Shown here: piece after piece, positions 6,464 through 26,286 of the stretch
Layout: every line of letters begins with the position of its first letter
Numbering within the stretch: position 1 is the first letter of the stretch
Source: Bacillota bacterium
GTDB lineage: Bacteria > Bacillota > Dethiobacteria > Dethiobacterales > Dethiobacteraceae
Direction of reading: 5' to 3'
Assembly (NCBI GenBank): GCA_018725565.1
Contig: QLUR01000032.1
Location: 1-32,778 of the forward strand
Length of the DNA: 32,778 nucleotides
Translations under genes and position numbers: made by a program
Notes under the pieces: generated by a model
The model's input: the letters and a program-made list of their open reading frames with translations, nothing else
Database searches by the model: none
What the model was told of the DNA's origin: nothing

Positions 6464-6474
6464 CACTAATCTGG

Positions 6475-6867: not shown

Positions 6868-6877
6868 GAGGTAAAGG

Positions 6878-10309: not shown

Positions 10310-10336
10310 AACAACAAAGAAGGGGGGTTGCTATCA

Positions 10337-12566: not shown

Positions 12567-12620
12567 TTTAACCTCGGTTAACACTACTTCTCTAACCACT
12601 TAACATTGCCCCGCTATAAT
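12567..12620 (+). promoter_or_regulatory. Putative PhoP-box promoter of the PstS-like/pseudopilin operon
   Basis: TTTAACC (12567), TTAACA (12578) and TTAACA (12600) are spaced by one and two 11-base turns, and a perfect TATAAT lies at 12615-12620, 15 bases after the start of the last box. Firmicute PhoP binds TTAACA-like hexamers repeated about every 11 bases. The same arrangement with the same distance to TATAAT recurs at 19433-19487. The gene downstream encodes a phosphate-binding protein, which supports the reading. Confidence 0.65.
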
Positions 12621-12849
12621 GAAAGCGGGCAGGGTACATGCCCTAAAGGTCCGCAAGTACCGTTCGGGCCTGCCGCAACTAATGGTCGGGAGGTGGTGAG
12701 GGTAGAGGATCGGCAGAGAAAGTCTTAAGAAAGCATCCTAGTGACTGACAACTGAAAAGACAAGGGTAGGCAAACCGACAACATGAACAGGCTCGCAAAA
12801 AACTTTTGGCACATTGATGCCAAAAAAATTATACCAAGGAGGAAGCAAA
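12621..12849 (+). other. Long structured 5' leader of the PstS-like gene
   Basis: About 220 transcribed bases precede the GTG. Possible hairpins are GGGCA/TGCCC (12627 onwards), AGGTCCG/CGGGCCT (about 12647-12678), and an 8-bp stem TTTTGGCA/TGCCAAAA at 12804-12825, just ahead of the ribosome site AAGGAGG (12836-12842). I could not match it to a known riboswitch class. Confidence 0.45.
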
Positions 12850-14721
12850 GTGAAGAAAAGATTTAAGTCGATTTTTCTTTTAGTAGCCATGCTGGTCCTC
12901 TCCCTGGTCCTGGGCAGCGTGGCGCCGCTGGCCGCGCCGGCGGAAGCGTCCGCCGCCCCGACCATTAACGGGCAGACAGTGACAACCCGCCGTATCGGCG
13001 CGACCCGCGGGCGCGGCGGTGTGGAACTGGCCAATGCGGCCTCGCTCCGGACAGCGCTGCAGCAGACAAGTGTTGCTGCGGTGGCTGAAGTCACCCCCGG
13101 CTCCATGCTGATCCGGCACGGCAGCCATGAACTGTTTATCCTGGCAGGCAGCCGCACCGCTTTCTTGACGACCGGCGTCGGCACCGCCACCCCGAGTACC
13201 AGAAATATTACCTTAACGGCGCTGCCGCAGACCGTGGCAGCCCGTGATCTGTTTGTACCGTTTGCCGACGTAGTGCGCCATTTAGGCGGCAGCTTCAGCA
13301 CCGCCCGTGTCGCCACCGTGCGGGCTGCCGCGCCGGCGGGCCCGTTCGCGTTTGATGCTGCCAATCCTGCCAGAGACCGCGATGTAGTTGCAGTCTCAGG
13401 CGTGCGCATGGTCGGCCGCGGCGCCACTTTCCCCAATACCCTGTACGGAAGCGGCGTGACGCCTGCGGTTGGTTCGTGGGTATACGGGTTCAGAGCTGCC
13501 TCCCAGGATATTGGTGGCGGCATCTCTGGCTATAACGTAACTCTCGCCGGCGCAGCTCCCGTGGGTACTCCCGTGGGTACTGATGGAGTTCCCCGTCCTG
13601 CTGATGCCATAACCGGCTCCGGTGTTGGTGTGGATGCTGTCCGTCTGCGCCTTGCCGATTTCGGCGGCACCGATATGATCAGTCTCGTGCCAGCCGCTGT
13701 TTTGGAAGCCTTCCCGGCCATCCCCACCGCCAAAGGCGGCGTGGCAGTGCTCTTTAACGTGAATGACACCAATGGCGTTCGTATCCGCCACCTGAACTTG
13801 ACTGCCGATATTATTGCCCGTATTTACCTCGGTCAAATCACTCGTTGGAACGACGCGGCGCTCGTCCGGCTCAACCCGGGCGTAGCCCTGCCGAATGAAG
13901 TTATCCAGGTGAACTGGCGTCCGGACGTTTCCGGCACCACGGAAATCTTCACAGCTTACCTGAACGCCGCTTCGCGCGTTTGGCGGGAGACGCTGACGTC
14001 CGCGCAGCGGACTACTGTAGACACGGATGATGTGGTCACACCCGGCGTTGGCGGTTGGACAACTCCGAGCCATGCCGCTATGACCGTGCAAACTGGTCAC
14101 CACCGCACAGGCGACGGCGGCAGCAGAATGCGGGACAGGGTTGCTAACACTACCGCTGCTGCAGGTGGCTCACCTGTTGCCACTAACGACGCTCATTTCG
14201 GAGCCGCCAATAATTCCATTGGTTTTGTCAGCTATGGCGACGTTGTTGGCTTTTTTAACGCCAACCGCATTGGTATAGCCCGCGTGCAAAACCGCGCCGG
14301 GATTTTTGTCCTGCCGCTCCTGGCCAATGTGTACGCCGCCGGCATCGGGCACGGCAACGTGCTGGCCCACCCGGTCAACTCCGCCAATCCCGGCGCCTAC
14401 CCCATTACCGGCCTGACCTGGATTATGGTAGAAAGAGACCCTGGCGTGGCTAAGCCTGTCGGCGACTCGGTGCAGATCGCTGATGGCGACCCTGCCATTC
14501 CCGGTAATCAACCCGACACTCTTATCACAGCGCAAGGCGCCCTAGCAGACGCCGACCTTACGGCTGCGCTCCAGCGCAACGCCGTGGTAGCTGACTTTAT
14601 CCGCTGGGCGGTCGTGCAAGGCTTTGGCGATGCGCAAGCGCGCAGCTTGCACATGGCGCCGCTGACGCCTACCATGAAGCGTGAAGCCGCCAGATTGCTT
14701 GAGACAATCCGGATTAACTAA
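12850..14721 (+). CDS. Secreted PstS-like phosphate-binding protein with extra N-terminal domain
   Basis: 623 residues from the GTG at 12850, seven bases after AAGGAGG. A signal peptide (residues 1-36, cut near ASA) has no lipobox Cys, so the protein is probably released or surface-bound by other means. Residues ~37-155 resemble the copper amine oxidase N-like domain of Clostridia (INGQTV ... AARDLFVPFADVVRHLGG). From ~185 a PstS fold follows: GRGATFP (189-195), DFGGTD (270-275), LTADIIARIYLGQITRWND and RPDVSGTT (357-364), so the phosphate ligands of E. coli PstS are kept. Long Ala/Gly/Thr-rich inserts make it nearly twice the normal PstS length. No pstCAB follows; pseudopilins do, 50 bases on. 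A role as pilus-borne or secreted phosphate binder is inference. Confidence 0.8.
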   Translation: MKKRFKSIFLLVAMLVLSLVLGSVAPLAAPAEASAAPTINGQTVTTRRIGATRGRGGVELANAASLRTALQQTSVAAVAEVTPGSMLIRHGSHELFILAGSRTAFLTTGVGTATPSTRNITLTALPQTVAARDLFVPFADVVRHLGGSFSTARVATVRAAAPAGPFAFDAANPARDRDVVAVSGVRMVGRGATFPNTLYGSGVTPAVGSWVYGFRAASQDIGGGISGYNVTLAGAAPVGTPVGTDGVPRPADAITGSGVGVDAVRLRLADFGGTDMISLVPAAVLEAFPAIPTAKGGVAVLFNVNDTNGVRIRHLNLTADIIARIYLGQITRWNDAALVRLNPGVALPNEVIQVNWRPDVSGTTEIFTAYLNAASRVWRETLTSAQRTTVDTDDVVTPGVGGWTTPSHAAMTVQTGHHRTGDGGSRMRDRVANTTAAAGGSPVATNDAHFGAANNSIGFVSYGDVVGFFNANRIGIARVQNRAGIFVLPLLANVYAAGIGHGNVLAHPVNSANPGAYPITGLTWIMVERDPGVAKPVGDSVQIADGDPAIPGNQPDTLITAQGALADADLTAALQRNAVVADFIRWAVVQGFGDAQARSLHMAPLTPTMKREAARLLETIRIN

Positions 14722-14771
14722 CTGAAAGTTCTTGAGTCTGACTCTAAATAATCTGTTAAGGAGTGAAAGAA

Positions 14772-15677
14772 GTGAGAGGTTTGCGTAAGATTTTGCATAG
14801 CCTGCGCGCATCTTCCGGCGGTTTCACACTGCTTGAACTCGTCGTGGTGCTGGCGATTATGGGCTTTTTGGTAGCGATGATTGCCCCCCGTTTGGCCGGG
14901 GTAGTAGCCGGGGCGCAGCGCAATGCGGACGACACCAATATCAGCCGGCTGCTGCAGGCCACGAGCCAGTTCCAGGAGCGTACCGGCCGCCTGCCGGCGG
15001 AAATGACCAACCTGGTGGTAGAGACCGGTACGGACGAATACCAGGCCCCGAACGTCAGCAACAACGACCCGGGGGACGGTAAAGAAGCTTTCTCGGCTGA
15101 CCTGGGAGCCGTCCTGCCGCTGCACATCCACTTATTAAGCGAGGCGGAGGCAAACGAGCTGATTCGCCTGGGCATCACCGAAGTGCGCAACTTTAACCCC
15201 AGCACGGCGGTGGATCCGCTGTACAACGGGATACCTGCTCTGGCGCCCACTCTGGAAAGGGTGCCGGTAGACGCCGATACCCCGGTGCTGATGGTCGGCG
15301 CAGGGCACGATGTGGGCGGCTGGGTGAACAGCCTGGGTGTAGCTCAGAATATTTTGCATCCCTCTTTTGCCTACCGCATCGTCCTGGGATTTGGCCAGGA
15401 CAGCGAACTGGTGACGGAGGGGCAGCTGCAAGGAGCAGCCATCAGCCCGCAGGGCACCCAAACCGACAATTACCTGTTTAACAATTACCTGCTGGTGCTG
15501 CCGCGCCTCCAGGCTACCATTGATCGCGGTCCTGACGTCCTGGAAGTAACGGCCAGCAACGCCGCCGGGCAGGAGGAAACCTTTGACCTGACCGAACGGC
15601 AGCGTAACTTTGAACTGACCGTCCTGAGCCCGGAAGGCAGAACCGTTCCGCCGGCCACGGTCTGGACCATCCAGTAA
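14772..15677 (+). CDS. Large type IV pilin-like / pseudopilin protein 1
   Basis: 301 residues. A short positive leader ends in GG, then Phe18-Thr-Leu-Leu-Glu22 and a long hydrophobic helix (LVVVLAIMGFLVAMIAP): the class III signal cut by a prepilin peptidase and methylated at the new N-terminal Phe, with Glu5 for assembly. The globular part of about 250 residues is much bigger than in major pilins and has no cysteines that I see. Start: AAGGAG (14758-14763) overlaps the GTG at 14763, so GTG 14772 at eight bases is chosen. It lies 50 bases after the PstS-like gene, with no terminator between, and is followed by a strong terminator (15760-15794). No prepilin peptidase is encoded in the window. 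Confidence 0.85.
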   Translation: MRGLRKILHSLRASSGGFTLLELVVVLAIMGFLVAMIAPRLAGVVAGAQRNADDTNISRLLQATSQFQERTGRLPAEMTNLVVETGTDEYQAPNVSNNDPGDGKEAFSADLGAVLPLHIHLLSEAEANELIRLGITEVRNFNPSTAVDPLYNGIPALAPTLERVPVDADTPVLMVGAGHDVGGWVNSLGVAQNILHPSFAYRIVLGFGQDSELVTEGQLQGAAISPQGTQTDNYLFNNYLLVLPRLQATIDRGPDVLEVTASNAAGQEETFDLTERQRNFELTVLSPEGRTVPPATVWTIQ

Positions 15678-15685
15678 ACCAACCC

Positions 15686-15713
15686 TAACCCGAGCTCTCC
15701 CTAAGGGAGAGGA
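15686..15713. repeat. REP-like palindromic element (inverse orientation)
   Basis: CTCTCCC-TA-GGGAGAG with a preceding CCCTAACCC. This is the reverse orientation of the element type at 22328-22366 and 32699-32742. Confidence 0.6.
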
Positions 15714-15720
15714 GAATTAA

Positions 15721-15740
15721 CGGCACACATGCGTGTGCCG
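15721..15740. other. Hairpin CGGCACAC/GTGTGCCG
   Basis: Perfect 8-bp stem with ATGC loop, 20 bases before the terminator at 15760. It may be a processing signal or part of a bipartite terminator. Confidence 0.45.
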
Positions 15741-15759
15741 CCAGACAAGGGTATTTTGC

Positions 15760-15794
15760 AGGCGGGGGCCGTCAGCCGGTCCCCGCCGGTTTTT
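15760..15794 (+). terminator. Terminator after pseudopilin 1 (first of three related hairpins)
   Basis: GGCGGGGGCC/GGTCCCCGCC stem, then GGTTTTTT. Near-identical hairpins stand at 16455-16490 and 19538-19573. Confidence 0.88.
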
Positions 15795-15821
15795 TCGGGA
15801 AACGGGAAAGAGGATAACCCT

Positions 15822-16067
15822 CTATTTTCCTGTGTGCCTGGTGTACAATTCTAAAAAATCAGCTAAACTCATTTCCAAGTCATCTCTGATTATTTTACGC
15901 AAAAGCCCTTTAGGGAGGTCATCATTTGCATGCACGGGAACAGTGGTTACCCTTCCATCTTCTGATCTCAGCCTCACATGGGAACCCCTTGTTCTGATGA
16001 CAATGAAGTTTATGGATTCCAAAAATCTTATGAGCTCTTTGCCTGAAAGCGTAGGGATTTTATACAT
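15822..16067 (-). CDS. hicA: HicA-type mRNA interferase toxin
   Basis: 81 residues with the HicA double-stranded-RNA-binding-like fold: SGKELIRFLESINF, the catalytic-His motif RGSHVRLR, and VPVHANDDLPKGLLRKIIRD. HicA cuts mRNA independent of translation. It overlaps hicB by eight bases and is distal in the operon. The gene is clearly AT-richer than the flanking pilin genes and lies antisense between two of them, so it was probably gained as a module. A plus-strand frame over the same place is a shadow. Confidence 0.88.
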   Translation of the reverse strand: MYKIPTLSGKELIRFLESINFIVIRTRGSHVRLRSEDGRVTTVPVHANDDLPKGLLRKIIRDDLEMSLADFLELYTRHTGK

Positions 16068-16281
16068 TACAATGCATTTCCAGTTCTCTAAACCCTATGA
16101 ATTTGTTAAGCTCTTCGACCTTCGTTTCCTCAAGGCACATTTCTATAACTTCTCTTATATTCACCAGTGCTTCGTCGATCGTTTTGCCGTAAGAGTGGCA
16201 ACCCCTGAATAACGGACAACTTACGATATAACACTCATCTTCATCCATTTCAACAATAATGGGTAAATGTAACTTCGCCAT
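16060..16281 (-). CDS. hicB: HicB-type antitoxin (short form)
   Basis: 73 residues from the ATG at 16281: a degenerate RNase H-like fold (HLPIIVEMDEDECYIVSCPLFRGC, split here as LPIIVEMDEDE and YIVSCPLFRGC), then helix TIDEALVNIREVIEMCLEE. It lacks the C-terminal DNA-binding part found in longer HicB proteins. An alternative ATG at 16320 would sit only about two bases after the predicted transcription start (promoter 16329-16357), giving an almost leaderless 86-residue form. I prefer 16281 because HicB proteins normally begin right at the first beta-strand, although only a distant GGAG precedes it. Confidence 0.8.
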   Translation of the reverse strand: MAKLHLPIIVEMDEDECYIVSCPLFRGCHSYGKTIDEALVNIREVIEMCLEETKVEELNKFIGFRELEMHCNV

Positions 16282-16293
16282 TTTTTCGGCACT

Positions 16294-16418
16294 CCAGCCC
16301 TTTCGTGGTGATTGCACCATTTATGTTCATTGTAGCATAGGCAGCAGTTGCTGACAATCAGGGGCTAACCCGTGATCAGTGCCGGCAAGCGGAGCAGCGG
16401 GTAATCGGACGAAGGGGG
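16294..16418. repeat. Duplicated segment R1, copy A (promoter-bearing)
   Basis: 125 bp that match 19240-19364 with three mismatches and no gaps. It includes the minus-strand promoter at 16329-16357 and the first codons of the longer hicB frame. Confidence 0.93.
16329..16357 (-). promoter_or_regulatory. Promoter of hicBA
   Basis: On the minus strand TTGTCA, a 17-base spacer and TACAAT, each one base from consensus. Transcription should start near 16322. The identical promoter stands before the HepT gene at 19275-19303. Confidence 0.75.
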
Positions 16419-16454
16419 AGACTTGGCCACTCCTCCCCACCTTTATTTTTATTT

Positions 16455-16490
16455 GGCGGGGGCCGGCTGACGGTCCCCGCCGGCTTTTTT
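16455..16490 (+). terminator. Terminator hairpin between hicBA and pseudopilin 2
   Basis: GGCGGGGGCC/GGTCCCCGCC, then GGCTTTTTT. No plus-strand gene ends here, so it either insulates the downstream unit or acts as an attenuator left from a longer leader, as copy B (19538-19573) suggests. Confidence 0.82.
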
Positions 16491-16539
16491 GCTGCGCCGG
16501 CGCCGCAACAGTTGTGTTGCCCCGCCATTCGGACTTTAT

Positions 16540-16590
16540 GTTAAGGGAAAGTTTAAGTGAATGTTATGTAGATGTTATATTTTGGTTAAC
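16540..16590 (+). promoter_or_regulatory. Array of five phased GTTA-type hexamers before pseudopilin 2
   Basis: GTTAAG (16540), GTTTAA (16551), GTTATG (16563), GTTATA (16574) and GTTAAC (16585): steps of 11, 12, 11 and 11 bases. It looks like a multi-box PhoP site, but no clear -10 box follows at the usual distance. The array is copied exactly at 19623-19673. Confidence 0.5.
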
Positions 16591-16744
16591 CCGGTAAAAG
16601 GGCAGGAGGCCGCGCGGGCCGGACGAATAAGGATAACATAGGGTTGGCAAGATGCCGGCCCTATATGGGGAACCGGCTCCATATGGGATGCCGGCCGCAT
16701 ATAAGACTTATCTTTGCTGGACGTCATAGTTGTGCTGTCGTTAA

Positions 16745-16761
16745 GCCGGCAAGATGCCGGC
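16745..16761 (+). other. Hairpin GCCGGCA/TGCCGGC in the pseudopilin 2 leader
   Basis: Seven-bp stem with AGA loop, 25 bases before the ATG. Its right arm AGATGCCGGC also occurs at 16650 and in variant form at 16688 and 16785, so the leader 16640-16790 seems built from short repeated pieces. Confidence 0.4.
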
Positions 16762-16785
16762 TCCACAGGGGGAAGGGAGAGCGGG

Positions 16786-18609
16786 ATGCCGGTTTCACAA
16801 AGCTGTAGTTGTGCTAAAGATAAAATAGCGCCGTCAGGAGGCTGGGACCACTCAAAAGGCTTTACGCTGATGGAGGTCATTATTGTGCTGGCGGTGCTGG
16901 CCATGTTTGCCGCGATGGCTGTGCCGCTGGCCGGCCGGCTGGAGGCGCGGGGGCGCGAGCGGGAAACGGAACGGCGCCTGGAGCTGGTGCGCGAGGCCAT
17001 GCTGGGGCGGCGCGGCGCGCTCGACGCCGGCGGCAGGAGGGTTTTGGCAGGGTATGCCGGCGATCTGGGCGGGTTGCCGCCTTTGCGCCGCTCCGTTTGG
17101 GAGGCAGTTTACCAAAGATGGGGGTGGCCGGGCGAAACCGTTGTTGATGGGCGGTTTGCCGATGGGCAGGAGGCGCAAAGCTACTGGGCCTCTGGCATGG
17201 GGCAGCCGCGCAACCTGTGGGTGCCGCTGCCGCCGGGAGGAGCCCCCAATCCTTCGGAGCCACGTTGGCGCGGTCCCTATTTGCACGAGCCGCGAGATGA
17301 GTTCCCCGGCAATGCGGACCATTTGCGCCGGACGTCCGGGGAGCGGCTTGCGGGGCTTACGGAAGCACAGCGCCGCGCAGCCGAGGCGGCCAACCGGGAG
17401 ATCGAGATGCGCCAGACGGCGGGGAGGCTGGCTGACGCCTGGGGCCGGTCGCTGCTCTTTTACTATGTGGCCCCTGGTGGTGGGGGTGCGCACCACGGCG
17501 TGGCCACGGTACACACTACTGTCTACCTCGTTTCTGAGGGGCCGGACCTGCACAGCTCACGTCCAGAGTTTCCGTCGTATGATACAAGCCGGCCGGAAAA
17601 CAGGGATAACCTGGTGCTGGTCATTACGCCGCAGGAGTGGCATGACGTGGCGCGGACAGAGGAGACGAGACGGCTGCTGCGGGCGGCCGCCGACGTGCTG
17701 GTGGGCCGGTGGGGGCCGGTCGACCGGCTGGGCCGGCCGGTGTTCGGCGGGTATGTGGGCGACCAGGGTATTTGGCCTGACCTCTTTGCCTGGCAAGAGA
17801 TGCCGACGCCGTGGCGGCAGGTAACAGGGCGGTGGGAGCAAGACGCGGGAAATCTGGTATGGGTACCGCCGGCGCCGGCGGACGTGGTCGCCGGAGAGGT
17901 TTATGGACAGCCGCGGGGGCTGTGGACGCGGGATACGAACGGAGACGGCACGGCGGAGCCGCCAGTGCCGCCCGATTTACGGTTGCCGCCTGACCCGGGT
18001 GATCGGAACAGGAATGTGCTGCTGGGCTTTGGCTGGCGCGGGGCTTATCTGCCGCGCCCGGAGGGGACGGGTAAGGCGGAGGTGCTGCGGGATGCCTGGG
18101 GCGTACCGCTGGAGTTCCGGCTCTCGCATGCTGAGGATCCCGACCCGCCGCCGGCCCAGACGCTGACCATTACCAGCGCCGGGCAGGACGGGGTGCTGCG
18201 CACGGACGACGACCTGCTGGAAACGGTGCCGCGCCATTTTGACGTGCGCCGTCCCCTGCCGGAAAACATTTTTACCTTAGAAGGAAGAGTAGTTAATGAA
18301 ACAGATCAGGACCGCTGGTTTCGCGTCCGGCTGCACGCCAGCCCCGCCAGCCAGCCCGCTGTGCCGGCGCCGCCCACCGTGCCGCAGTTGGTGTACGGGA
18401 GGATGACGGTGCAGGGGCAGATCTACGGGAACACCTGGCAGTTCATCCTTCCGGCGGCTAGGAGCAGCGCCGGGCCGCGCCTGCTGGAGCTGGTGGAAGT
18501 CAGCGAGACGGGCGACTTCATCAGCAGGCAGGACTGGACGACGGTGTTTGTCGGCAGCGGCGGCACGGCCACGCCGGAGCGGGAGCCGCTAATCTTGAGA
18601 GCACGCTAA
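16786..18609 (+). CDS. Very large two-domain pseudopilin 2
   Basis: 607 residues from the ATG at 16786 (GGAAGGGAG six bases before). The 25-residue leader with two Cys ends in SKG, then Phe26-Thr-Leu-Met-Glu30 and the helix VIIVLAVLAMFAAMAVPLAG: a class III prepilin signal. The globular part is two related GspG-like halves. Each has a G(Y)xGDxGxxPxL segment, GQPRxLW, WRGxYLxxP, LxDAWGxxLxF and a glycine-rich strand near the end (SEGPDLHS in half 1, SAGQDGVLRTDDD in half 2). A C-terminal beta-rich tail follows (~510-607). This is several times the size of GspG, so it may sit at the tip or serve as a minor pilin. The downstream gene in this copy is a truncated pilM. Confidence 0.82.
   Translation: MPVSQSCSCAKDKIAPSGGWDHSKGFTLMEVIIVLAVLAMFAAMAVPLAGRLEARGRERETERRLELVREAMLGRRGALDAGGRRVLAGYAGDLGGLPPLRRSVWEAVYQRWGWPGETVVDGRFADGQEAQSYWASGMGQPRNLWVPLPPGGAPNPSEPRWRGPYLHEPRDEFPGNADHLRRTSGERLAGLTEAQRRAAEAANREIEMRQTAGRLADAWGRSLLFYYVAPGGGGAHHGVATVHTTVYLVSEGPDLHSSRPEFPSYDTSRPENRDNLVLVITPQEWHDVARTEETRRLLRAAADVLVGRWGPVDRLGRPVFGGYVGDQGIWPDLFAWQEMPTPWRQVTGRWEQDAGNLVWVPPAPADVVAGEVYGQPRGLWTRDTNGDGTAEPPVPPDLRLPPDPGDRNRNVLLGFGWRGAYLPRPEGTGKAEVLRDAWGVPLEFRLSHAEDPDPPPAQTLTITSAGQDGVLRTDDDLLETVPRHFDVRRPLPENIFTLEGRVVNETDQDRWFRVRLHASPASQPAVPAPPTVPQLVYGRMTVQGQIYGNTWQFILPAARSSAGPRLLELVEVSETGDFISRQDWTTVFVGSGGTATPEREPLILRAR
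16862..16977. repeat. Duplicated segment R3, copy A (5' part of pseudopilin 2)
   Basis: 116 bp encoding the pilin helix and the following charged stretch. Its eroded copy is 19721-19836. Confidence 0.93.
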
Positions 18610-18613
18610 TCAC

Positions 18614-18667
18614 GGGGAGGATGACGATTGTTTCAGGCGCTGGCGCTGGAAATTGACGGGCCGGTGA
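18614..18667. repeat. Duplicated segment R4, copy A (5' end of pilM)
   Basis: 54 bp with ribosome site, TTG start and 13 codons, matching 19888-19941. The match breaks sharply at 18667. Confidence 0.93.
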
Positions 18668-18777
18668 CAGGCAGCGATGAAATTTGGATTTTTATGTGTG
18701 GCGCTGCAAAAATTCTGTTACGTAGCCGAAGTATTGTTCATACATCTGAATGGCTTCTGAAATGCTCTGGTAAACAA
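18628..18777 (+). pseudogene. Truncated pilM start
   Basis: The TTG at 18628 with GGGGAGGA before it is the same start as in the intact pilM (19902). Thirteen codons (MFQALALEIDGPV) agree apart from one residue, then the frame runs into foreign sequence antisense to hepT and stops at 18775-18777. It is a breakpoint product, not a working gene, but a short peptide could still be made. Confidence 0.8.
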
Positions 18778-19117
18778 TAAGGTCATCTATATTCTCGTAC
18801 TCGCGCACGATAATATTGCGTTCACCGGCGGACGGAGCAATTCTTAAGGCAAATTCGTGGGGGATCAGGCCGGTTTTAGCGCTTTCGATAAACGAGCGGT
18901 AAAAATCGGGCGGTGGGGGAAAGCCTTCATCCACCAGCACATGAGAGTTAATATCCGAAGCTACATCAACCAGCAACTGTATCAGGCGCTCCGCTGTCCG
19001 CTTAATCAGGTAATTTCCCTGGTAATCCTGGAAGCTGTATTTACTTATTCCTTTCAGTTCATCCAGGTACTGGCGGAGCTTGACCAGCTTGCGTTGTACC
19101 AGTAAATGCTCTACCAT
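18692..19117 (-). CDS. HepT-like (DUF86) HEPN protein, catalytic His replaced
   Basis: 141 residues, all-helical HEPN/DUF86 family: LRQYLDELKGISKYSF, KRTAERLIQLLVDVASDIN, FPPPPDFYRSF, and the signature region around residue 100. HepT toxins use R-x4-6-H as RNase motif. Here it reads R100-N-I-I-V-R105-E-Y, with Arg (CGC) where His (CAC) is expected, a single base change. No complete MntA nucleotidyltransferase antitoxin lies next to it. So it looks like an orphan, probably inactive toxin. GGGGG lies ten bases before the ATG. A promoter identical to that of hicBA stands upstream at 19275-19303. Confidence 0.75.
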   Translation of the reverse strand: MVEHLLVQRKLVKLRQYLDELKGISKYSFQDYQGNYLIKRTAERLIQLLVDVASDINSHVLVDEGFPPPPDFYRSFIESAKTGLIPHEFALRIAPSAGERNIIVREYENIDDLIVYQSISEAIQMYEQYFGYVTEFLQRHT

Positions 19118-19232
19118 TTTGCATACCCCCGAATTTTTTGCTTTGGGCTAAAGTTGTAAATTCTGAGCGTTGCAGGCCATCTGATTTACGGTACTCTTCG
19201 GCAAGGTCTTTTTTGAACTGTTCCGCTTCCAT
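19059..19232 (-). CDS. Small ORF upstream of and overlapping hepT, unrecognised
   Basis: 57 codons from the ATG at 19232. The first ~38 residues (MEAEQFKKDLAEEYRKSDG, then LQRSEFTTLAQSKKFGG) look like real charged-helix protein, while the end runs in another frame through the hepT start and is low quality. It may be the tail of a lost partner gene or a short antitoxin. There is no GSxxRG nucleotidyltransferase motif and no good ribosome site. Confidence 0.25.
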   Translation of the reverse strand: MEAEQFKKDLAEEYRKSDGLQRSEFTTLAQSKKFGGMQNGRAFTGTTQAGQAPPVPG

Positions 19233-19239
19233 CGGCGCA

Positions 19240-19364
19240 CCAGCCCTTTCGTGGCGATTGCACCATTTATGCTCATTGTAGCATAGGCAGCAGTTGCTGA
19301 CAATCAGGGGCTAACCCGTCATCAGTGCCGGCAAGCGGAGCAGCGGGTAATCGGACGAAGGGGG
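19240..19364. repeat. Duplicated segment R1, copy B
   Basis: Matches 16294-16418 (three mismatches in 125 bp). It carries the minus-strand promoter in front of the HepT gene. Confidence 0.93.
19275..19303 (-). promoter_or_regulatory. Promoter of the hepT region
   Basis: TTGTCA, 17 bases, TACAAT on the minus strand, the same as the hicBA promoter in copy A. Transcription would begin near 19268, about 150 bases before the hepT ATG. Confidence 0.7.
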
Positions 19365-19432
19365 GCGCGGTTGAATCCGGGAATATCAGGGCTGGAGGAA
19401 ACATTGGCGGCAGCCAAGCGAATAATGGAAAA

Positions 19433-19487
19433 TTTAACCGCAGTTTAACATAACTTCGTATGTAACTTAACATTGTGCGGCTATAAT
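19433..19487 (+). promoter_or_regulatory. Putative PhoP-box promoter before the pilM operon
   Basis: TTAACC (19434), TTAACA (19445) and TTAACA (19467), spaced 11 and 22 bases, with TATAAT at 19482-19487. The last box to TATAAT distance (15 bases) equals that in the PstS-like promoter at 12567-12620. This element is absent from copy A, where R1 and R2 are only about 8 bases apart. Confidence 0.65.
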
Positions 19488-19493
19488 ATCAGT

Positions 19494-19573
19494 AGTTAAA
19501 TAATAAAGCCACTCATCCCCACCTTTATTTATATTTAGGCGGGGGCCGCCAGCCGGTCCCCGCCGGCTTTTTT
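19494..19573 (+). ncRNA. Possible short leader RNA between Pho-type promoter and terminator
   Basis: Transcription from the TATAAT at 19482 should start near 19494 and meet the strong terminator at 19538-19573, giving a transcript of about 80 bases. No ORF or ribosome site is evident in it. It could be a small RNA or an attenuated leader of the pilM operon. Confidence 0.35.
19538..19573 (+). terminator. Terminator hairpin downstream of the second Pho-type promoter
   Basis: GGCGGGGGCC and GGTCCCCGCC arms, then GGCTTTTTT. It lies between a promoter and the pilM operon, so readthrough or antitermination would be needed unless another promoter (near 19623-19720) is used. Confidence 0.82.
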
Positions 19574-19622
19574 GCCGCGCCGGCGCCGCAACAGTTGTGT
19601 TGCCCCGCCATTCGGACTTTAT

Positions 19623-19673
19623 GTTAAGGGAAAGTTTAAGTGAATGTTATGTAGATGTTATATTTTGGTTAAC
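19623..19673 (+). promoter_or_regulatory. Array of five phased GTTA-type hexamers before pilM
   Basis: GTTAAG 19623, GTTTAA 19634, GTTATG 19646, GTTATA 19657, GTTAAC 19668. Identical to the array at 16540-16590. GATATATT at 19715-19722 could be a weak -10 box in this copy. Confidence 0.5.
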
Positions 19674-19719
19674 CCGGTAAAAGGGCAGGAGGCCGCGCGG
19701 GCCGGACGAATAAAGATAT

Positions 19720-19875
19720 ATTACGCTGACGGAGGTCATTATAGTGCAGTCGGTGCAGGCCATGTTTGCCGCGATGGCTGTGCCGCTGGCCGGCCGGCTG
19801 GAGGCGCGGGGGCGCGAGCGGGAAACGGAACGGCGCAAGGACTATAAACTGTGGACTAAAAACTTTCCACTGTAA
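19720..19875 (+). pseudogene. Eroded 5' fragment of pseudopilin 2
   Basis: R3 copy B (19721-19836) encodes the pilin helix, but the leader peptide is gone and the helix now reads TEVIIVQSVQAMFAAMAVP, with Met to Thr, Leu to Gln (twice) and Ala to Ser against the intact copy. After ETERR the frame leaves the pilin and stops at 19873-19875. It cannot make a pilin. Confidence 0.85.
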
Positions 19876-19887
19876 ACTGAGGTAACC

Positions 19888-19941
19888 GGGGAGGATGACA
19901 ATTGTTTCAGGTGCTGGCGCTGGAAATTGACGGGCCGGTGA
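19888..19941. repeat. Duplicated segment R4, copy B (intact pilM start)
   Basis: Partner of 18614-18667. Here the reading frame goes on into the full pilM gene. Confidence 0.93.
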
Positions 19942-21671
19942 TCCGTTGTGCGGTGGTGGCGCGCAAGGGCTTAAAAAAGGTGACTATCTCCCGGCATGAG
20001 AGCTTTACCCGGCTGGAGGAGGAAGGCGCGCCTCTAAGCCCTGACGAGTTGTCCATGGTTACGGCGCGGCTGACGGCTATTCCGCAGGATTGTGTGGTGG
20101 TTACGCCTAGAGCGGCTTTTTTGCAGGTGGCGCTGCCGGAAATGCAGGCGGTGTCCGCCTGGAAAGGCCGGGCGCGCAAGGTGCGCGGCGCGAAGCTGGC
20201 CGCGGCGCTGCGGCAGGAGACGGAAGCGTATACCGGGACGGCGGCCGAGGAAATGCTGCTGGGGTACGAGCGGCTGCCGGAAGCGGAGAACGAGTTTTGG
20301 GTAACGGCATTTCCGCTGGAGGAGTACCGGCAGCTGAAAGAGGTGCTGGCGGCAGGCGGCTTAAGGTTAAAGCGCGTCTATCCGCCGGACTGCTGTTTTG
20401 CGGTGGCGGCGGCTCATTTTATGGCGCCTGGCGCCGGGCAGTGCCTGGTAATCGATGCCGGATCCGGAGCTTTGCGCCTGGCGAATTACGAGCGGGGGCG
20501 CCTGTATAGTTACCGGTCGGTACCGCTGTTTGAGATGCGGCAGTTTGGTGAGTTTACCCGCGAAGACTGGGAACAGCTGCTGGCGGAGCTTGGCTTGGAG
20601 AAGGCGGAGCTGGCGCGGACCTGGGCCGGCAGGACTAAGGGGGGAGAGCCGGCGCTTTCTGTTACGGGGGTTGGGTCGCTTGAGGAAAGTGTGCCGGTAT
20701 TTTTAAAGAGTTTTTTGGACCGGGAAGTTACAGCGCTGGCGATGCCGGCGGGAGAGATGGTGACAGCGGGAGTTTGCGGCGGAGACTATGCGACAGTGGC
20801 CGGGGCAGGTTTGCGGGAACTGCTGTATCCGTTTCTTCCGGGACGTGCTTTGGGGGTCAGCGACCAGCTGCCTATTTTGCAGCAAGCAGCGCAAAAGGCC
20901 TACCTGGCGCCTGTTGCAGTGGTGCTGCTGTCCTTTTTGGTGCTTGGCGGCCATTATTTATTGATTATCCGCCAAATTGGGGCGGCAGAGGCTGAACTGG
21001 CGGTACTGGCGCGGGAGCGGGAGGAGGTGCGCGGCGCCGTGGCCAGGATGCAGGAAGATGAAAAAAAGGTAACAGAGTTTACGGAAAAGCGCCTGCTTTT
21101 GGCTGATAAGGTGGATTATCTGCAAAACAGGCTGCCGCAGTATGGCAGGCTGCTGCACGCCGTGCTGGCCGCTATGGATGCGGAAGCCGGCATGGCCATA
21201 AAGTTCGTGCAGATAGAGCTGCTGGAGCAGGGGAAGCAGTTTATCGTTTCCGGGGAAAGCGCGGACTCCGGCTCCATTCACCGCTTGGCGGTGGCGCTGC
21301 AGGGGGAAGAATGGTGCGCTTTTGGCAAGGTGGAGGAGATCGTCCGCGAGGTGCGGGAGGAGGAGGCTTTGGCAGAGCCGGGGTTTGTGGAGGAACTGCC
21401 CGGACCATTGCCGCCGGAGGCAGGGCCGCTGCCGGGGGAGGAGCTGCCTGGCATGGGAGATGGAGAAGAGATATTGCCTATGGAGGAGGATCCGTTTGCC
21501 GGACTGCCGGAAGAAGCGGCATTTGCGGAGGAAGCGGTGCCGACGGTGGTGTTTACATTTAAAACAAGAGTGATGCTGCGGCCGGAGTTTTTCCCGGAGC
21601 GCCCCTTTGAGGAAAAGGTGGAGCCGGTAACGGAAGAGCCGGAGGAAGAGCAGGAGGAAGAAGTGTTATGA
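19902..21671 (+). CDS. PilM-PilN-like fusion, inner-membrane platform of the pilus
   Basis: 589 residues. Residues 1 to ~315 are a PilM/GspL-type actin-like ATPase fold (VLALEIDGPVIRCAVV at the start, CLVIDAGSGALRL in the middle). One membrane helix at ~334-354 is followed by a coiled coil and a PilN-like ferredoxin fold up to ~480, then about 100 residues rich in Glu and Pro (PMEEDPFAGLPEEAAFAEE; EEPEEEQEEE at the end). So PilM and PilN, normally two genes, are one chain, as in GspL. The TTG start at 19902 is fixed by GGGGAGGA seven bases before; the ATG at 19895 overlaps that site and opens only an 11-codon frame. The stop overlaps the next start (ATGA). Confidence 0.82.
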   Translation: MFQVLALEIDGPVIRCAVVARKGLKKVTISRHESFTRLEEEGAPLSPDELSMVTARLTAIPQDCVVVTPRAAFLQVALPEMQAVSAWKGRARKVRGAKLAAALRQETEAYTGTAAEEMLLGYERLPEAENEFWVTAFPLEEYRQLKEVLAAGGLRLKRVYPPDCCFAVAAAHFMAPGAGQCLVIDAGSGALRLANYERGRLYSYRSVPLFEMRQFGEFTREDWEQLLAELGLEKAELARTWAGRTKGGEPALSVTGVGSLEESVPVFLKSFLDREVTALAMPAGEMVTAGVCGGDYATVAGAGLRELLYPFLPGRALGVSDQLPILQQAAQKAYLAPVAVVLLSFLVLGGHYLLIIRQIGAAEAELAVLAREREEVRGAVARMQEDEKKVTEFTEKRLLLADKVDYLQNRLPQYGRLLHAVLAAMDAEAGMAIKFVQIELLEQGKQFIVSGESADSGSIHRLAVALQGEEWCAFGKVEEIVREVREEEALAEPGFVEELPGPLPPEAGPLPGEELPGMGDGEEILPMEEDPFAGLPEEAAFAEEAVPTVVFTFKTRVMLRPEFFPERPFEEKVEPVTEEPEEEQEEEVL

Positions 21672-22312
21672 AAAGAAAGCTTACTAAGCTGGAATTATAC
21701 GGGGTGGTGGCCGTGCTGCTGGCCGCTGCCTTTTACGGTTACCTGACGCAGGTTTATGACCCGGCTGAAGCCAGGCTGGCAGCTGTTAACAGCGAGATTA
21801 GCGCGGCGCAGGCGGAAATCCGCCAGCAAAGAGGCGTACTGACCGGGGCGCCGGCGGTGCGGGAAAAAGCCGCGGGGCTGGAAGCGGCGGCAGCGGAGCT
21901 GGAAGCGGCGCTGGCCGAAATCAGAAAGACGGCCAAAGCTGATGATGACCGGGCGGTGACCGAGGCGATGGACCTGATCGACGAGCTGGCTGCGGGAGAA
22001 AACCTGACGGTCAAAGAGCTGAGATTCGGCAGGAGGATTGCCGTGCTCGGGCAGGAGCCGGAAGCGGCGCCGGCGCGGCGGCGGGGCGAGCCGGAGGTTG
22101 TGCCGACAATCAGGGACCGCTTGGGCTGGCAGGAATACCGGCTGGTATTCAGCGGCAACCGGCAGGAAATTATTGCTTTTATGGGACGCTTGGCGCAGGC
22201 TGTCTGGCTGGTGCGGGTCAATGAGTTAAGGGTGGACGTGGTACCGCCGCCAAGAGAGGGCGGGGGGCCGGCGCTTGGTGAGTATGAAATTGCCCTGACG
22301 CTTGTGCTATAA
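21668..22312 (+). CDS. PilO/GspM-like pilus assembly protein
   Basis: 214 residues: short cytoplasmic start, one membrane helix (~11-28), a long coiled coil (~35-95, Ala/Glu-rich), and a ferredoxin-like C-terminal domain (YRLVFSGNRQEIIAFMGRL ... VNELRVDVV ... YEIALTLVL). This is the PilO plan; the family is poorly conserved in sequence, so the call rests on topology and place in the operon. It is coupled to the PilM-PilN fusion by ATGA overlap. A REP-like element separates it from pilT. No PilP or secretin gene is present, as expected for a single-membrane cell. Confidence 0.75.
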   Translation: MKRKLTKLELYGVVAVLLAAAFYGYLTQVYDPAEARLAAVNSEISAAQAEIRQQRGVLTGAPAVREKAAGLEAAAAELEAALAEIRKTAKADDDRAVTEAMDLIDELAAGENLTVKELRFGRRIAVLGQEPEAAPARRRGEPEVVPTIRDRLGWQEYRLVFSGNRQEIIAFMGRLAQAVWLVRVNELRVDVVPPPREGGGPALGEYEIALTLVL

Positions 22313-22327
22313 GCTGCTGCTGCTCTG

Positions 22328-22366
22328 AAAATCCCCTCTCCCTCTGGGAGAGGGGCAGGGTGAGGG
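22328..22366. repeat. REP-like palindromic element
   Basis: CCCCTCTCCC-TCT-GGGAGAGGGG with GCAGGGTGAGGGG after it, in the gap between the PilO-like gene and pilT. This repeat type is widespread in bacteria and recurs at 32699-32742 and, reversed, at 15686-15713. It could terminate or stabilise mRNA within the operon. Confidence 0.75.
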
Positions 22367-22385
22367 GAATACGAGGGGGAAGGAA

Positions 22386-23516
22386 ATGGCGGAAGGACAG
22401 TTTTTAACGATCGAAGCATTGCTGCAGGAAGCCAACTCCCGGGAAGCCACAGACCTTCATTTTAACGCCGGTTTTCCCGTCACGTTCCGGATCCATGGGA
22501 AACTGGTGCCCGCCGGGGATGCTTTGGAGCCGGAGGCAGTACGCGCACTGCTTTTTCAGTTGCTGACACCCGGACAGCAGAGGGCGCTGGATGAGCGGCG
22601 CTCGGTGGACTGTGCGGTAAGTTTTAAGGGAAGCGGTCGTTACCGGGTTCACATCTATTACCAGCGGGGGGCATTGTCCGGGGCGATCCGCAAACTGGCT
22701 GACGAAATTCCCAGTCTGGAAGCCCTTGGTCTGCCGCCGGCGGTAAGCAGGCTGGCGGAACTTAAAATGGGCCTGGTGCTGGTCACGGGCGCCACCGGCA
22801 GCGGTAAAAGCACGACGCTGGCCTCGCTCGTTGATTTGATTAACAATACCCGTGAACAAAACATCATTACAGTTGAGGACCCGATAGAATATGTCCATTA
22901 CTCCAAAAAGAGCCTGGTCAGCCAGCGGGAAATCCATACCGATGTCCCGTCTTTCCCGGATGCCTTGCGCGGAGCGCTGCGGGCCGACCCGGATATCATC
23001 CTGGTCGGCGAGATGCGGGACCTGGAAACGATCCGGACGGCCATTCTGGCTGCTGAAACGGGGCACCTGGTGTTTTCCACCCTTCATTCGCGTGATGCTT
23101 CCTCCACCATCAACCGCATTTTGGGGGTTTTCCCTGCCGAGGAACAGCAGCAAATACGCCAGCAGCTTTCCGTATCGCTTAAAGCCGTTATTTCTCAACA
23201 GCTCCTGCCTAAACCAGATGAGAAGGGCCGGGTGCTGGCCTGCGAACTGATGCTGATTACTCCGGCCATTGCCAACCTGATCCGCCTGGGCAAGGCGGAC
23301 CATATTTACATAGCGATCGAAACCGGGATGCGTCTTGGGATGCAGACTATGGAACAGTCATTAACAGAGCTTTATCAGTCCGGGAAAATCAACCTGGAAA
23401 CTGCTTTGCACTCCGCCAGGAGTCCTGAGCTCGTCCAGCACCGCCTGAAGACCGGGGAAACAAATAAGAACCGGGCCAAGGTTATCGAACCACAGGTATT
23501 TGCCAAAAAGAAATAA
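22386..23516 (+). CDS. pilT: Type IV pilus retraction ATPase PilT
   Basis: Hexameric cytoplasmic motor that depolymerises pili. 376 residues. N-terminal PAS-like part (ATDLHFNAGFPVTFRIHGKL), Walker A GATGSGKS at 135-142, Asp box TVEDPIEYVH, Walker B DPDIILVGEMRD, His box TGHLVFSTLHSRDAS and the PilT-type AIANLIRLGK region (AIRNLIRE in classical PilT). A retraction motor argues for a real dynamic pilus and not only a type II secretion pseudopilus. An AAGGAA ribosome site precedes the ATG. Gene order PilO-pilT-pilB-pilC is compact. Confidence 0.93.
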   Translation: MAEGQFLTIEALLQEANSREATDLHFNAGFPVTFRIHGKLVPAGDALEPEAVRALLFQLLTPGQQRALDERRSVDCAVSFKGSGRYRVHIYYQRGALSGAIRKLADEIPSLEALGLPPAVSRLAELKMGLVLVTGATGSGKSTTLASLVDLINNTREQNIITVEDPIEYVHYSKKSLVSQREIHTDVPSFPDALRGALRADPDIILVGEMRDLETIRTAILAAETGHLVFSTLHSRDASSTINRILGVFPAEEQQQIRQQLSVSLKAVISQQLLPKPDEKGRVLACELMLITPAIANLIRLGKADHIYIAIETGMRLGMQTMEQSLTELYQSGKINLETALHSARSPELVQHRLKTGETNKNRAKVIEPQVFAKKK

Positions 23517-23528
23517 AGGGGATGGCTG

Positions 23529-25175
23529 ATGCCTAAGCAGCGGTTGGGTGAATTTTTGCTGTCACGGGGGATAATCAGCAATGAGGAGCTGCAGAAAATT
23601 CTGCGCGGCCAGCGTGGCGGGGGAGAGAAACTAGGGAGCTTGCTGGTAAAGCAGGGAGTGCTGACGGAGCAGCAGCTGTACAGGCTGCTGGCGGAATTTT
23701 TCGGGCTGGAATATCTGGAGCTTTCCTCGCTGCAACCGGAGGCCGCGGCAGCGGCAGCCAGCGGGATTCCGGCGGGACTGGCGCGCAAGCAGAACATTGT
23801 GCCGGTGTTTTTGGAGGGGAATGCCCTGGCAATAGCCGCTGCCGGTCCTGTTCCCACGCCGGTGCTGGAAAATTTGCGCCGCCTGAGCGGGCGGCAGGTA
23901 CGCCTGGTCCTGATGTCTCCCGAAGAGCTGGTGCTGGCTTTCAGCTATGTCTATGAAGGCGTAAAACCTGAACGGACGGTAAGCGCGCCGGTTCTGCCGC
24001 AAAGCGATGCTCCGGGAGCGGTGGAGCTGCTGGAGCAAATCTTAAATAAAGGCATAGAATTTGGGGCTTCCGATGTCCACCTGGAGCCGGAGCCGGAAGC
24101 GTTGCGGGTCAGGTTTCGCGTGGATGGTGTTCTGCAGACGACTGACCTGTTTCCGCCGGAGGTGGCCGGTGCGGCCATTGCCAGGCTGAAGGTGATGGCG
24201 GGAATGAATATTGCTGAACGGCGTGCCGCCCAGGACGGAGGCTTTAAGTTTTCACCGGCGCGCGGGGGGGAGAACAACACTGTTTCTGTACGGGTGGCTA
24301 CGGTTCCCAGTATTTACGGGGAAAGGGCGGTGCTGCGCCTGCAGGCCGCCGGGAAAGAATTTTCCCTGGAAAAACTTGGGTTTGAGCCGGACCATTTGCA
24401 GTCGCTGCTAAAGGTGCTGCACGCGCCGCACGGCATCTTTCTGACTACCGGGCCGTCGGGCAGCGGGAAGACGACGACTCTTTACTCGGCGCTTGATCAT
24501 TTGCGCTCTGATGCATTAAATATAGTGACCATTGAGGACCCGGTGGAAAAGGCCATCAAGGGGATCACCCAGACGCAGATTGAGCAGAAATATCCCTATC
24601 AGCAGGCGCTGCGCTCCATTTTGAGGTTGGACCCCGATATTATCATGGTCGGTGAAATCCGGGACGGTGAAACGGCAAGGCTGGCTTTGCAGGCGGCGCT
24701 GACCGGGCATCTGGTGCTTTCCACCCTGCATACCAATGATGCTACAGGCGCGGTCGCCCGCCTGGTGGATATGGGGTGTGAGCCGTTTCTGGTCAATGCT
24801 ACAGTGCTCGCGGTGCTGGCACAGCGGCTGGTACGCAAGCTGTGCCAGGCCTGCCGCCGTCCGTATCAGGCTGACCAGGCGGAATTGGCAACATTGGGCT
24901 TGGACAGTGCTGCCGCGGGGCGGGAAATATTCTATGCCGCCAGCGGCTGCGGCGAGTGCAAGGGGCAGAAATACAGGGGCAGGATCGGGATTTATGAGCT
25001 GCTGGTAATTGATGCCGGCTTTAAAAAACAGGTAGGCCGGAGAGCCGACCCGGAAGCGCTGCGGGAGTACGCACTGCAGGAAGGCATGCGTTCCCTGCGT
25101 CAGGACGGTATTCTGAAAATCCGTCAGGGACTTACTTCGGTGGCGGAAGTGCTGTCCTCCACCGCAGAGCATTAA
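23529..25175 (+). CDS. pilB: Pilus extension ATPase PilB/GspE
   Basis: Assembly motor of the pilus. 548 residues. N-terminal GspE-II/MshEN-type region (RLGEFLLSRGIISNEELQ ... LGSLLVKQGVLTEQQL), which in relatives can bind c-di-GMP. Then the catalytic core with ASDVHLEPE, Walker A GPSGSGKT (308-315), Walker B LDPDIIMVGEIRD, TGHLVLSTLHTNDA, and the zinc tetracysteine C439xxC442 ... C474xxC477 that marks PilB/GspE and is absent from PilT. It starts 12 bases after the pilT stop region. The MshEN-like domain makes control by a cyclic dinucleotide possible; that is inference. Confidence 0.93.
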   Translation: MPKQRLGEFLLSRGIISNEELQKILRGQRGGGEKLGSLLVKQGVLTEQQLYRLLAEFFGLEYLELSSLQPEAAAAAASGIPAGLARKQNIVPVFLEGNALAIAAAGPVPTPVLENLRRLSGRQVRLVLMSPEELVLAFSYVYEGVKPERTVSAPVLPQSDAPGAVELLEQILNKGIEFGASDVHLEPEPEALRVRFRVDGVLQTTDLFPPEVAGAAIARLKVMAGMNIAERRAAQDGGFKFSPARGGENNTVSVRVATVPSIYGERAVLRLQAAGKEFSLEKLGFEPDHLQSLLKVLHAPHGIFLTTGPSGSGKTTTLYSALDHLRSDALNIVTIEDPVEKAIKGITQTQIEQKYPYQQALRSILRLDPDIIMVGEIRDGETARLALQAALTGHLVLSTLHTNDATGAVARLVDMGCEPFLVNATVLAVLAQRLVRKLCQACRRPYQADQAELATLGLDSAAAGREIFYAASGCGECKGQKYRGRIGIYELLVIDAGFKKQVGRRADPEALREYALQEGMRSLRQDGILKIRQGLTSVAEVLSSTAEH

Positions 25176-25215
25176 TATTACGGCGTCCCTGTAACTTGGG
25201 AGGAGGAAGCGCAAA

Positions 25216-26286
25216 GTGAAGGCAAAGCTGGAAATGCTGCTGGTACGGATCACGCAGGTAAAACAGGCGGAGGTAGTGCTGCTGCTCAAACAGCTGGCGG
25301 CGCTGATTGCCTCCGGCCTGCCTCTGGTCCCCTGCCTGGTGACGCTGATTGAGCAGACGGCAAACCGGCGGCTGCGTTATACGTTAAGCAGGATAAAAGA
25401 AGATGTGGAACAGGGGAAGCCGCTGAGCGAGGCGATGGACAAATTCCCCCGGGTCTTCCCGCTGACGGTGCGCAATACCGTCAGGGTGGGCGAGGCCAGC
25501 GGTTTGTTGGAAGGGGCTATGGAGCAGGTGGCCGGCTTTATGGAGGAAGATGCCTCTTTTCGCGGGGAGATTATCACCGCTTTGGTATATCCGGCGATTG
25601 TTTTTGCGGCTACGCTTGGGGTGACCGGTTTTATGGTGCTGGTGGTTATTCCGCAAATGATCCCCTTTCTGGAGATGATGGGCGGGGAAATGCCCTGGAA
25701 CACCAGACTGCTGGTCAGCATTACAGCCTGGGCTACGGAAAATGCCGTTACAGGCGCCTATTCCCTGGGTACCGCCGTGCTTGCTTTTGTGATGGCCGGG
25801 CGCACCCGGCGCGGCAGGTACGTGATTGACAGCCTGAAAACGAAGCTCCCGCTGTTTGGCCAGTTAATCAGTTACGCCATTATTGTCCAGTTTGCCAAAA
25901 CCATGCATTTGCTGATCACCAGTGGGGTGACCATTACCGAAGCGCTGAAAACGGTGCGGGATGTGGACAGGAACTCAGTGGTCCGCCGGGCCATTGATGT
26001 CTGTATCGGCAGTGTCCTGCTAGGTGAGAGCCTGTCCGAGGCGATGGGGAAATTTAAGCCGGTTTTTCCGCCGCTGGTGCGCAGCATGACCAGGGTAGGC
26101 GAGGAGACCGGTACCATGGACGCGGCCATGAAACGGATCGGTGATATCCACTATACTATTTTAAAAAGCTACATAAAAAGGCTGAATGCCGCCCTGGAGC
26201 CGGTGCTGCTCATTTTTTTGGGCGGCATGGTCGGTTTTGTGGCGGCAGCGATGATCGGCGGCATCCTGGCCAGCTATGAGATGTAA
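25216..26286 (+). CDS. pilC: Pilus platform protein PilC/GspF
   Basis: Polytopic inner-membrane core of the assembly platform. 356 residues with two T2SSF domains. The first (LLLKQLAALIASGLPLVPCL ... FPLTVRNTVRVGEASGLLEGA) and the second (FAKTMHLLITSGVTITEAL ... PPLVRSMTRVGEETGTMDAAM) show the same motif order, with membrane helices at about 130-150, 175-200 and 325-352. The N-terminal extension is shorter than in longer PilC proteins. GTG start with GGGAGGAGGAAG before it. It is the last clear pilus gene here; no prepilin peptidase follows. Confidence 0.92.
   Translation: MKAKLEMLLVRITQVKQAEVVLLLKQLAALIASGLPLVPCLVTLIEQTANRRLRYTLSRIKEDVEQGKPLSEAMDKFPRVFPLTVRNTVRVGEASGLLEGAMEQVAGFMEEDASFRGEIITALVYPAIVFAATLGVTGFMVLVVIPQMIPFLEMMGGEMPWNTRLLVSITAWATENAVTGAYSLGTAVLAFVMAGRTRRGRYVIDSLKTKLPLFGQLISYAIIVQFAKTMHLLITSGVTITEALKTVRDVDRNSVVRRAIDVCIGSVLLGESLSEAMGKFKPVFPPLVRSMTRVGEETGTMDAAMKRIGDIHYTILKSYIKRLNAALEPVLLIFLGGMVGFVAAAMIGGILASYEM

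Follow-up and report, generated by a model that had tools for sequence, protein, structure and literature searches.

Gene content of the locus

The DNA stretch analysed here (the window; 32,778 nucleotides, GenBank assembly GCA_018725565.1, contig QLUR01000032.1) originates from a bacterium of the Dethiobacteraceae (Bacillota) and represents contig C39 of its 2.67 Mb genome assembly (G000). On the plus strand it carries an operon of eight genes (12850-26286), in which a paralogue of the phosphate-binding protein PstS, here called PstSx, is followed by two prepilins and the assembly machinery of a type IV pilus (T4P); the initial annotation, which had described all eight genes together, proved right in this. 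Very probably the locus is a pilus operon under phosphate-starvation (Pho) control that possesses its own PstS, with both the linkage and the promoter being well supported by sequence comparison. Three relatives were used for this comparison, namely the Clostridiales metagenome-assembled genome CROMO_A_104 (G002), CROMO_A_128 (G017) and the complete genome of Candidatus Formimonas warabiya DCMF (CP017634). The operon consists of the following features:

12568-12620, plus strand: PhoP-type box (TTAAC repeats at 0, 10 and 32) with -10 element TATAAT (12615-12620), 5' of PstSx; the spacing recurs in G017 and G002, and DCMF has a weaker box
12621-12849, plus strand: PstSx mRNA leader of about 230 nt with ribosome-binding site AGGAGG
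12850-14721, plus strand: PstSx, with Sec signal peptide, diverged stalk-like N-terminal domain and PstS-type phosphate-binding domain
14763-15677, plus strand: pilin1, a GspG-like prepilin of 304 aa, probable major pilin
15678-15793, plus strand: hairpin region 3' of pilin1 with a terminator-like stem-loop (15761-15793), fold z -4.7
16785-18609, plus strand: pilin2, a large prepilin (mature 582 aa), probable modular or tip pilin; start codon uncertain, longest open reading frame (ORF) from 16714
19902-21671, plus strand: PilM-PilN fusion
21668-22312, plus strand: PilO-like protein, named from position and conservation
22386-23516, plus strand: PilT retraction ATPase (TIGR01420, 443 bits, cut-off 319)
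23529-25175, plus strand: PilB extension ATPase with an MshEN domain of the cyclic di-GMP (c-di-GMP) type (MshEN plus T2SSE, the latter 5e-116)
25216-26286, plus strand: PilC/GspF platform protein (T2SSF, 4.7e-53)

Pho-type promoter

The repeat spacing ahead of PstSx is close to that of the canonical pstS promoters of the family, which mostly show 0, 11 and 33, and its Pho-box score is reached by none of 100 dinucleotide shuffles in each of the four genomes. The region before pilin2 does not beat its shuffles. A strict pattern (TTAAYN{5,6}TTAAYN{16,18}TTAAY) was designed with the promoters of PstSx and pstS already in view, so that its matches to these two are not independent. It finds five sites in the 2.67 Mb, belonging to pstSCAB, pstB-phoU-phoP-phoR, a 2-aminoethylphosphonate operon, PstSx and a copy before pilM. 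The held-out matches lie, in the same genome, at pstB-phoU-phoP-phoR and at the 2-aminoethylphosphonate operon and, in G002 and G017, at lipoprotein pstS genes, and the reversed pattern used as control gave no match in any of these three genomes.

A second PhoP-type box, before pilM, had also been proposed in the initial annotation. The box exists (19434-19487) but it falls inside a duplicated segment, and the gap between pilin2 and pilM in G002 (26 bp) and DCMF (60 bp) leaves no room for it, which rules out an independent ancestral Pho control of pilM. The duplication relates 16286-16982 to 19232-19841 (89-96%), the second copy containing the Pho box and a remnant of the pilin2 N-terminus, and 18613-18667 repeats the pilMN start at 19887-19941. 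Two further features are:

15822-16278, minus strand: HicA/HicB toxin-antitoxin genes inserted between the two pilin genes; G002 and DCMF lack them and have short pilin1-pilin2 gaps
18613-19901, plus strand: duplicated and rearranged segment with the second pilMN start, a HepT toxin gene (minus strand), the Pho-box copy and the pilin2 remnant

Toxin-antitoxin genes generally crowd the locus (Phd/YefM-ParE, a PIN toxin, HicA/HicB and HepT at 10328-10907, 11406-11825, 15822-16278 and 18692-19117), and two of these inserts break the pilus operon in this genome and not in G002 or DCMF.

The gene of a PhoP-type regulator is located on contig C25 beside pstB, phoU and a histidine kinase gene. Its product scores below the cut-offs of both the YycF and the PhoB model and was named PhoP because the gene adjoins pstB and phoU. 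In DCMF an OmpR-family regulator close to PhoB and YycF is encoded directly 3' of pilC (locus L029, 19639-20334). A long PstSx leader is also found in G017, G002 and DCMF. Since the four leaders align poorly and the PstSx leader gave no Rfam match at the gathering cut-off or at E<=5, we make no claim for a structured RNA. All four genomes have strong hairpins 3' of pilin1 (z -3.2 to -4.7), which would fit a high output of PstSx and pilin1 and a lower one of the machinery.

PstSx, a PstS paralogue with a conserved pocket

In a domain search PstSx matches PBP_like_2 (5.7e-11) and stays below the cut-offs of the PstS models (128.6 of 205 bits for the NCBIfam PstS equivalog). The start codon GTG at 12850 is favoured over TTG at 12814 by the ribosome-binding site and by the relatives. 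Compared with the canonical PstS of the family, which consists of a stalk domain and a phosphate-binding domain and is encoded on contig C41, PstSx is collinear along the full length (hhalign 9.6e-52) and shares the pocket residues and a nearly equal Pho-box spacing. It differs in having insertions, a diverged stalk that has lost the PF07833 match, and pilins instead of pstCAB as neighbours. The initial annotation had noted that pstCAB is missing, which holds for the locus but not for the genome, as pstSCAB with its own PstS is present on contig C41.

PstSx carries a Sec-type signal and is predicted to be soluble. No LPxTG motif was found, and as the protein of the window has no cysteine at all it cannot have a lipobox, so that PstSx appears to be without a recognised lipid or cell-wall anchor. 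The DINGGG signature was not found in the N-terminal 60 residues of any of the four PstSx sequences. By alignment to solved PstS, with T10 and F11 mapped via the canonical PstS, the window, G017 and G002 share all the residues equivalent to T10, F11, S38, D56, R135, D137, S139, G140 and T141 (9/9; P 1e-4), while DCMF shows T10S and D137E and keeps the other seven. These residues are presumably phosphate ligands as generally known for E. coli PstS. PstSx keeps the residues of the phosphate pocket, in agreement with what had first been noticed.

Pilins and assembly machinery

Both pilins show the N_methyl prepilin motif above cut-off (pilin1 4.7e-6, pilin2 2.2e-7), and pilin1 resembles GspG in the model match. 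A tandem GspG repeat suspected by eye in pilin2 was not found by self-BLAST, and the pilin2 structure model gave no significant Foldseek match (best E 0.04). The PilM-PilN fusion had no hit as a single sequence, and a profile built from eight genomes hits PilM (2ych, 1.7e-7) and only weakly PilN (3jc8, 0.036). For the PilO-like protein no significant Pfam match was obtained, the label being derived from its position and its similarity among the loci. A prepilin peptidase is encoded elsewhere in the genome (contig C13; PF01478, 8.8e-20). No secretin (PF00263) was found in six genomes, with the control being positive (rings in 6/14), and the operon itself encodes none, which fits a monoderm envelope.

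The GspG-like pilin1 and a soluble, anchorless PstSx with a Sec signal might also suggest a piston similar to a type II secretion system (T2SS) that pushes PstSx through the cell wall, after which PstSx would act outside the cell, either in the medium or at the surface, as DING proteins and ElpS do. Caulobacter ElpS is indeed released in a T2SS-dependent manner under phosphate starvation (PMC2996285), and a P. aeruginosa DING protein is reported as type II-secreted in the title of a work cited by PMC7922408. We nevertheless regard such a secretion role as rather unlikely. The secretin GspD is lacking in the six genomes searched, the retraction ATPase PilT is encoded in every copy of the operon, in monoderms proteins can be released by Sec export without any further machine, and the canonical PstS of the same genome is likewise unanchored without having a pilus beside its gene. 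The secretion of phosphatases had been another suggestion of the initial annotation and finds no support here, as a PhoA-type alkaline phosphatase (PF00245) was found neither in the genome of the window nor in DCMF, nor among the genes behind strict Pho boxes. In G002 and G017 PF00245 is present on contigs other than those of the operon; PhoX and PhoD families were not searched.

PilT and the MshEN-bearing PilB would also suit a pilus that moves or attaches cells at low phosphate, with PstSx acting as an adhesin or local phosphate sensor and not as a scavenger. P. aeruginosa possesses PstS-containing adhesive appendages (PMC3195088, PMC7922408), and pilin2 looks modular with a C-terminal part predicted, at low confidence, to be beta-rich. 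However, the complete conservation of the pocket exceeds the needs of an adhesin and the operon contains no signalling gene, apart from the regulator downstream of it in DCMF, and we consider this explanation unlikely. A Pho-induced competence-type pilus importing DNA as phosphorus source, with PstSx as an accessory, is, judged from the pilus genes, very improbable: DNA is a phosphorus source and T4P of monoderms do take up DNA during competence (PMC12040237), but PilB scores 236 bits against a ComGA cut-off of 300 and PilM, PilN and PilO stand outside the ComG machinery as tabulated in PMC10191384.

Conservation and evolutionary origin

The complete operon is found in the same order and with other flanking genes in G002 and DCMF. 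In G017 PstSx, pilin1 and pilin2 end one contig and pilMN, pilO, pilT, pilB and pilC are located on another small contig, the two halves probably forming one operon. In the window, in G002 and in DCMF, 23-41 nt separate PstSx from pilin1. Between the window and G017, dN/dS lies at 0.05-0.21 for six operon genes (PilO and PilC left out), with 0.19 for PstSx and 0.08 for pilin1, all being rough ratios as dS is near or above 1.

A PstS-like gene unlinked to pilins in relatives had been named at the outset as one of the observations that would refute the proposed pilus. In scans of the class and the phylum the linkage held. Of the 98 genomes scanned in the class, three encode full-length pilin1, and these are also the three that have PstSx; among 398 genomes of the phylum PstSx was found only in G000 and G002 (E<1e-280), both with the operon. 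The scores of the phylum scan drop from above 930 bits to 171 bits, the next match being a canonical-type PstS that aligns with the phosphate-binding part only. Full-length pilin1 without PstSx is present in G297, G411 and G316 and at the loci L030 and L031, always along with pilin2, pilMN, pilT and pilB. In the phylogenetic trees the PilB sequences linked to PstSx group together (100/99), as do the PilT sequences (98/97); both groups are separate from their PstSx-free counterparts and distant from the housekeeping T4P found in four genomes. PstSx itself is a single clade (100/100) with a long stem branch of 1.25. From the co-occurrence scans and the PilB and PilT trees, the link between PstSx and the pilus seems to have arisen once and to have been kept, as far as the sequences at hand tell.

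This also bears on the idea that PstSx is just a spare binding protein for transport, expressed from a convenient Pho promoter beside a general pilus. Its collinearity with the canonical stalk PstS would agree with that, but the adjacency is kept in DCMF as well as in three genera that belong to one family, PstSx is a single long-stemmed clade and the co-occurrence within the class is perfect, so that chance neighbourhood is already disfavoured and the least probable of the explanations considered.

The PstSx-free sister operons have features of their own. A conserved ORF of about 75 aa (AHTNEMVLAKI...) lies 5' of pilin1 (L064 7833-8078, L065 13935-14156, L030 9230-9589, L031 8438-8695), its L064 copy being without Pfam or NCBIfam match. 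A hydrophobic ORF of about 400-430 aa lies between pilin1 and pilin2 (L064 9348-10556, L031 10211-11515, L065 11388-12647) and by eye only resembles an O-antigen ligase or pilin glycosylase, the L064 copy having no Pfam match. At L030 a PhoA-type alkaline phosphatase (6007-7695) is encoded 2.3 kb upstream of the pilus operon on the opposite strand. Elsewhere in the window, 21-nt tandem repeats (TTGACACTGCCCAGTTCGGTT) are located within a minus-strand coiled-coil ORF (12143-12293), and a long tandem repeat between a CdaR-like gene and glmM (6450-6917) shows repeated peptides in several frames.

Proposed mechanism

Beyond the Pho-controlled operon itself we propose, with slightly less than even confidence in the mechanism as a whole, a dedicated, retractable phosphate-starvation T4P of anaerobic monoderms in which PstSx, a partner that is not itself a pilin, would bind phosphate on the filament or close to it. 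At low phosphate the PhoP-type regulator encoded on contig C25 would switch on the promoter at 12568-12620, yielding abundant mRNA of PstSx and pilin1 up to the hairpin, with transcription continuing past it into pilin2 and the genes of the machinery. PstSx would be exported by Sec and might serve as a non-pilin partner of the filament, much as other type IV filaments have effectors that sit at the tip or are secreted. Pilins of this filament family are often paired with non-pilin tip-located effectors and modular pilins (PMC10191384), and such a role would suit PstSx, whose gene comes first and neighbours that of the probable major pilin. It could then bind phosphate or phosphate-bearing surfaces beyond the cell wall, and PilT may return the filament, with phosphate being passed to the ordinary PstSCAB transporter. 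The pilus may further be controlled by c-di-GMP via the MshEN domain of PilB. The transcriptional response, the stoichiometry, the attachment of PstSx and the delivery by retraction are steps that we infer. A more specific version, a nutrient-capturing filament acting as a scavenging organelle, with many PstSx copies along its length that bind phosphate past the wall, are drawn back by PilT and load PstSCAB, is doubtful but worth considering; capture on a filament and adhesion to minerals are both possible.

Several points weigh against this proposal. It is based on sequence and on four genomes, three of them from one family. The attachment to the filament is assumed, since PstSx has neither a pilin N-terminus nor a recognisable docking domain, and the sister pilus clade shows that the filament can do without PstSx. 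The box in DCMF is weak evidence because the strict pattern misses the weaker array before its PstSx and the control is noisy there (2 matches each). Structure prediction adds little, with an AlphaFold pLDDT of 34 for PstSx (from four sequences) and of 56 for pilin2, whose all-beta C-terminal part has low confidence.

The operon ties a T4P to one nutrient by a promoter logic shared with phosphate uptake and by having the gene of a dedicated binding protein at its head. If the proposal is true, nutrient acquisition joins the jobs of monoderm pili. DCMF is the dominant organism of an enrichment culture (PMC8163858), and papers on it do not mention pili or PstS in their main texts. Its complete genome carries a copy of the operon that is open to study at low phosphate.

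Comparison with known systems

The archaeal bindosome shares the idea of substrate-binding proteins on a type IV-like assembly, its binding proteins carrying class III signal peptides in contrast to the Sec signal of PstSx; the NCBIfam model BasE matches here only as a distant ATPase. In P. aeruginosa, PstS appendages and DING proteins (PMC3195088, PMC7922408) combine low-phosphate expression with a PstS-like protein on surface filaments. P. aeruginosa, however, is a diderm, a link to a T4P operon was not found in these two papers, and the DING signature is lacking in PstSx. In Caulobacter, too, the gene of a protein made under phosphate starvation, ElpS, adjoins those of a T2SS, a member of the type IV filament family that takes care of its release (PMC2996285), but ElpS is an outer-membrane lipoprotein tied to phosphatase activity in a diderm with a full T2SS.

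A close likeness in machinery is to the type IVa pili of the monoderms Streptococcus sanguinis and Clostridioides difficile (PMC6916266), which share PilB, PilT and PilC, lack a secretin and include a PilM-PilN fusion (C. difficile) as well as large modular pilins; they also have PilM, PilN and PilO, to which the counterparts here are a PilM with profile support, a weakly matched PilN and a candidate PilO. The earlier suggestion that a Gram-positive version with PilT had not been described is thus incorrect, as T4P with PilT and PilM-PilN fusions were already known in monoderms. No description of a T4P operon under Pho control that includes a PstS of its own was found in the searchable literature, which misses many subscription papers. 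What sets the present locus apart from the known monoderm pili is the Pho-box promoter, a PstS paralogue encoded at the head of the operon, two GspG-like pilins of very large size and a clade of its own, and what appears to be new is the Pho control together with a PstS partner of a monoderm T4P.

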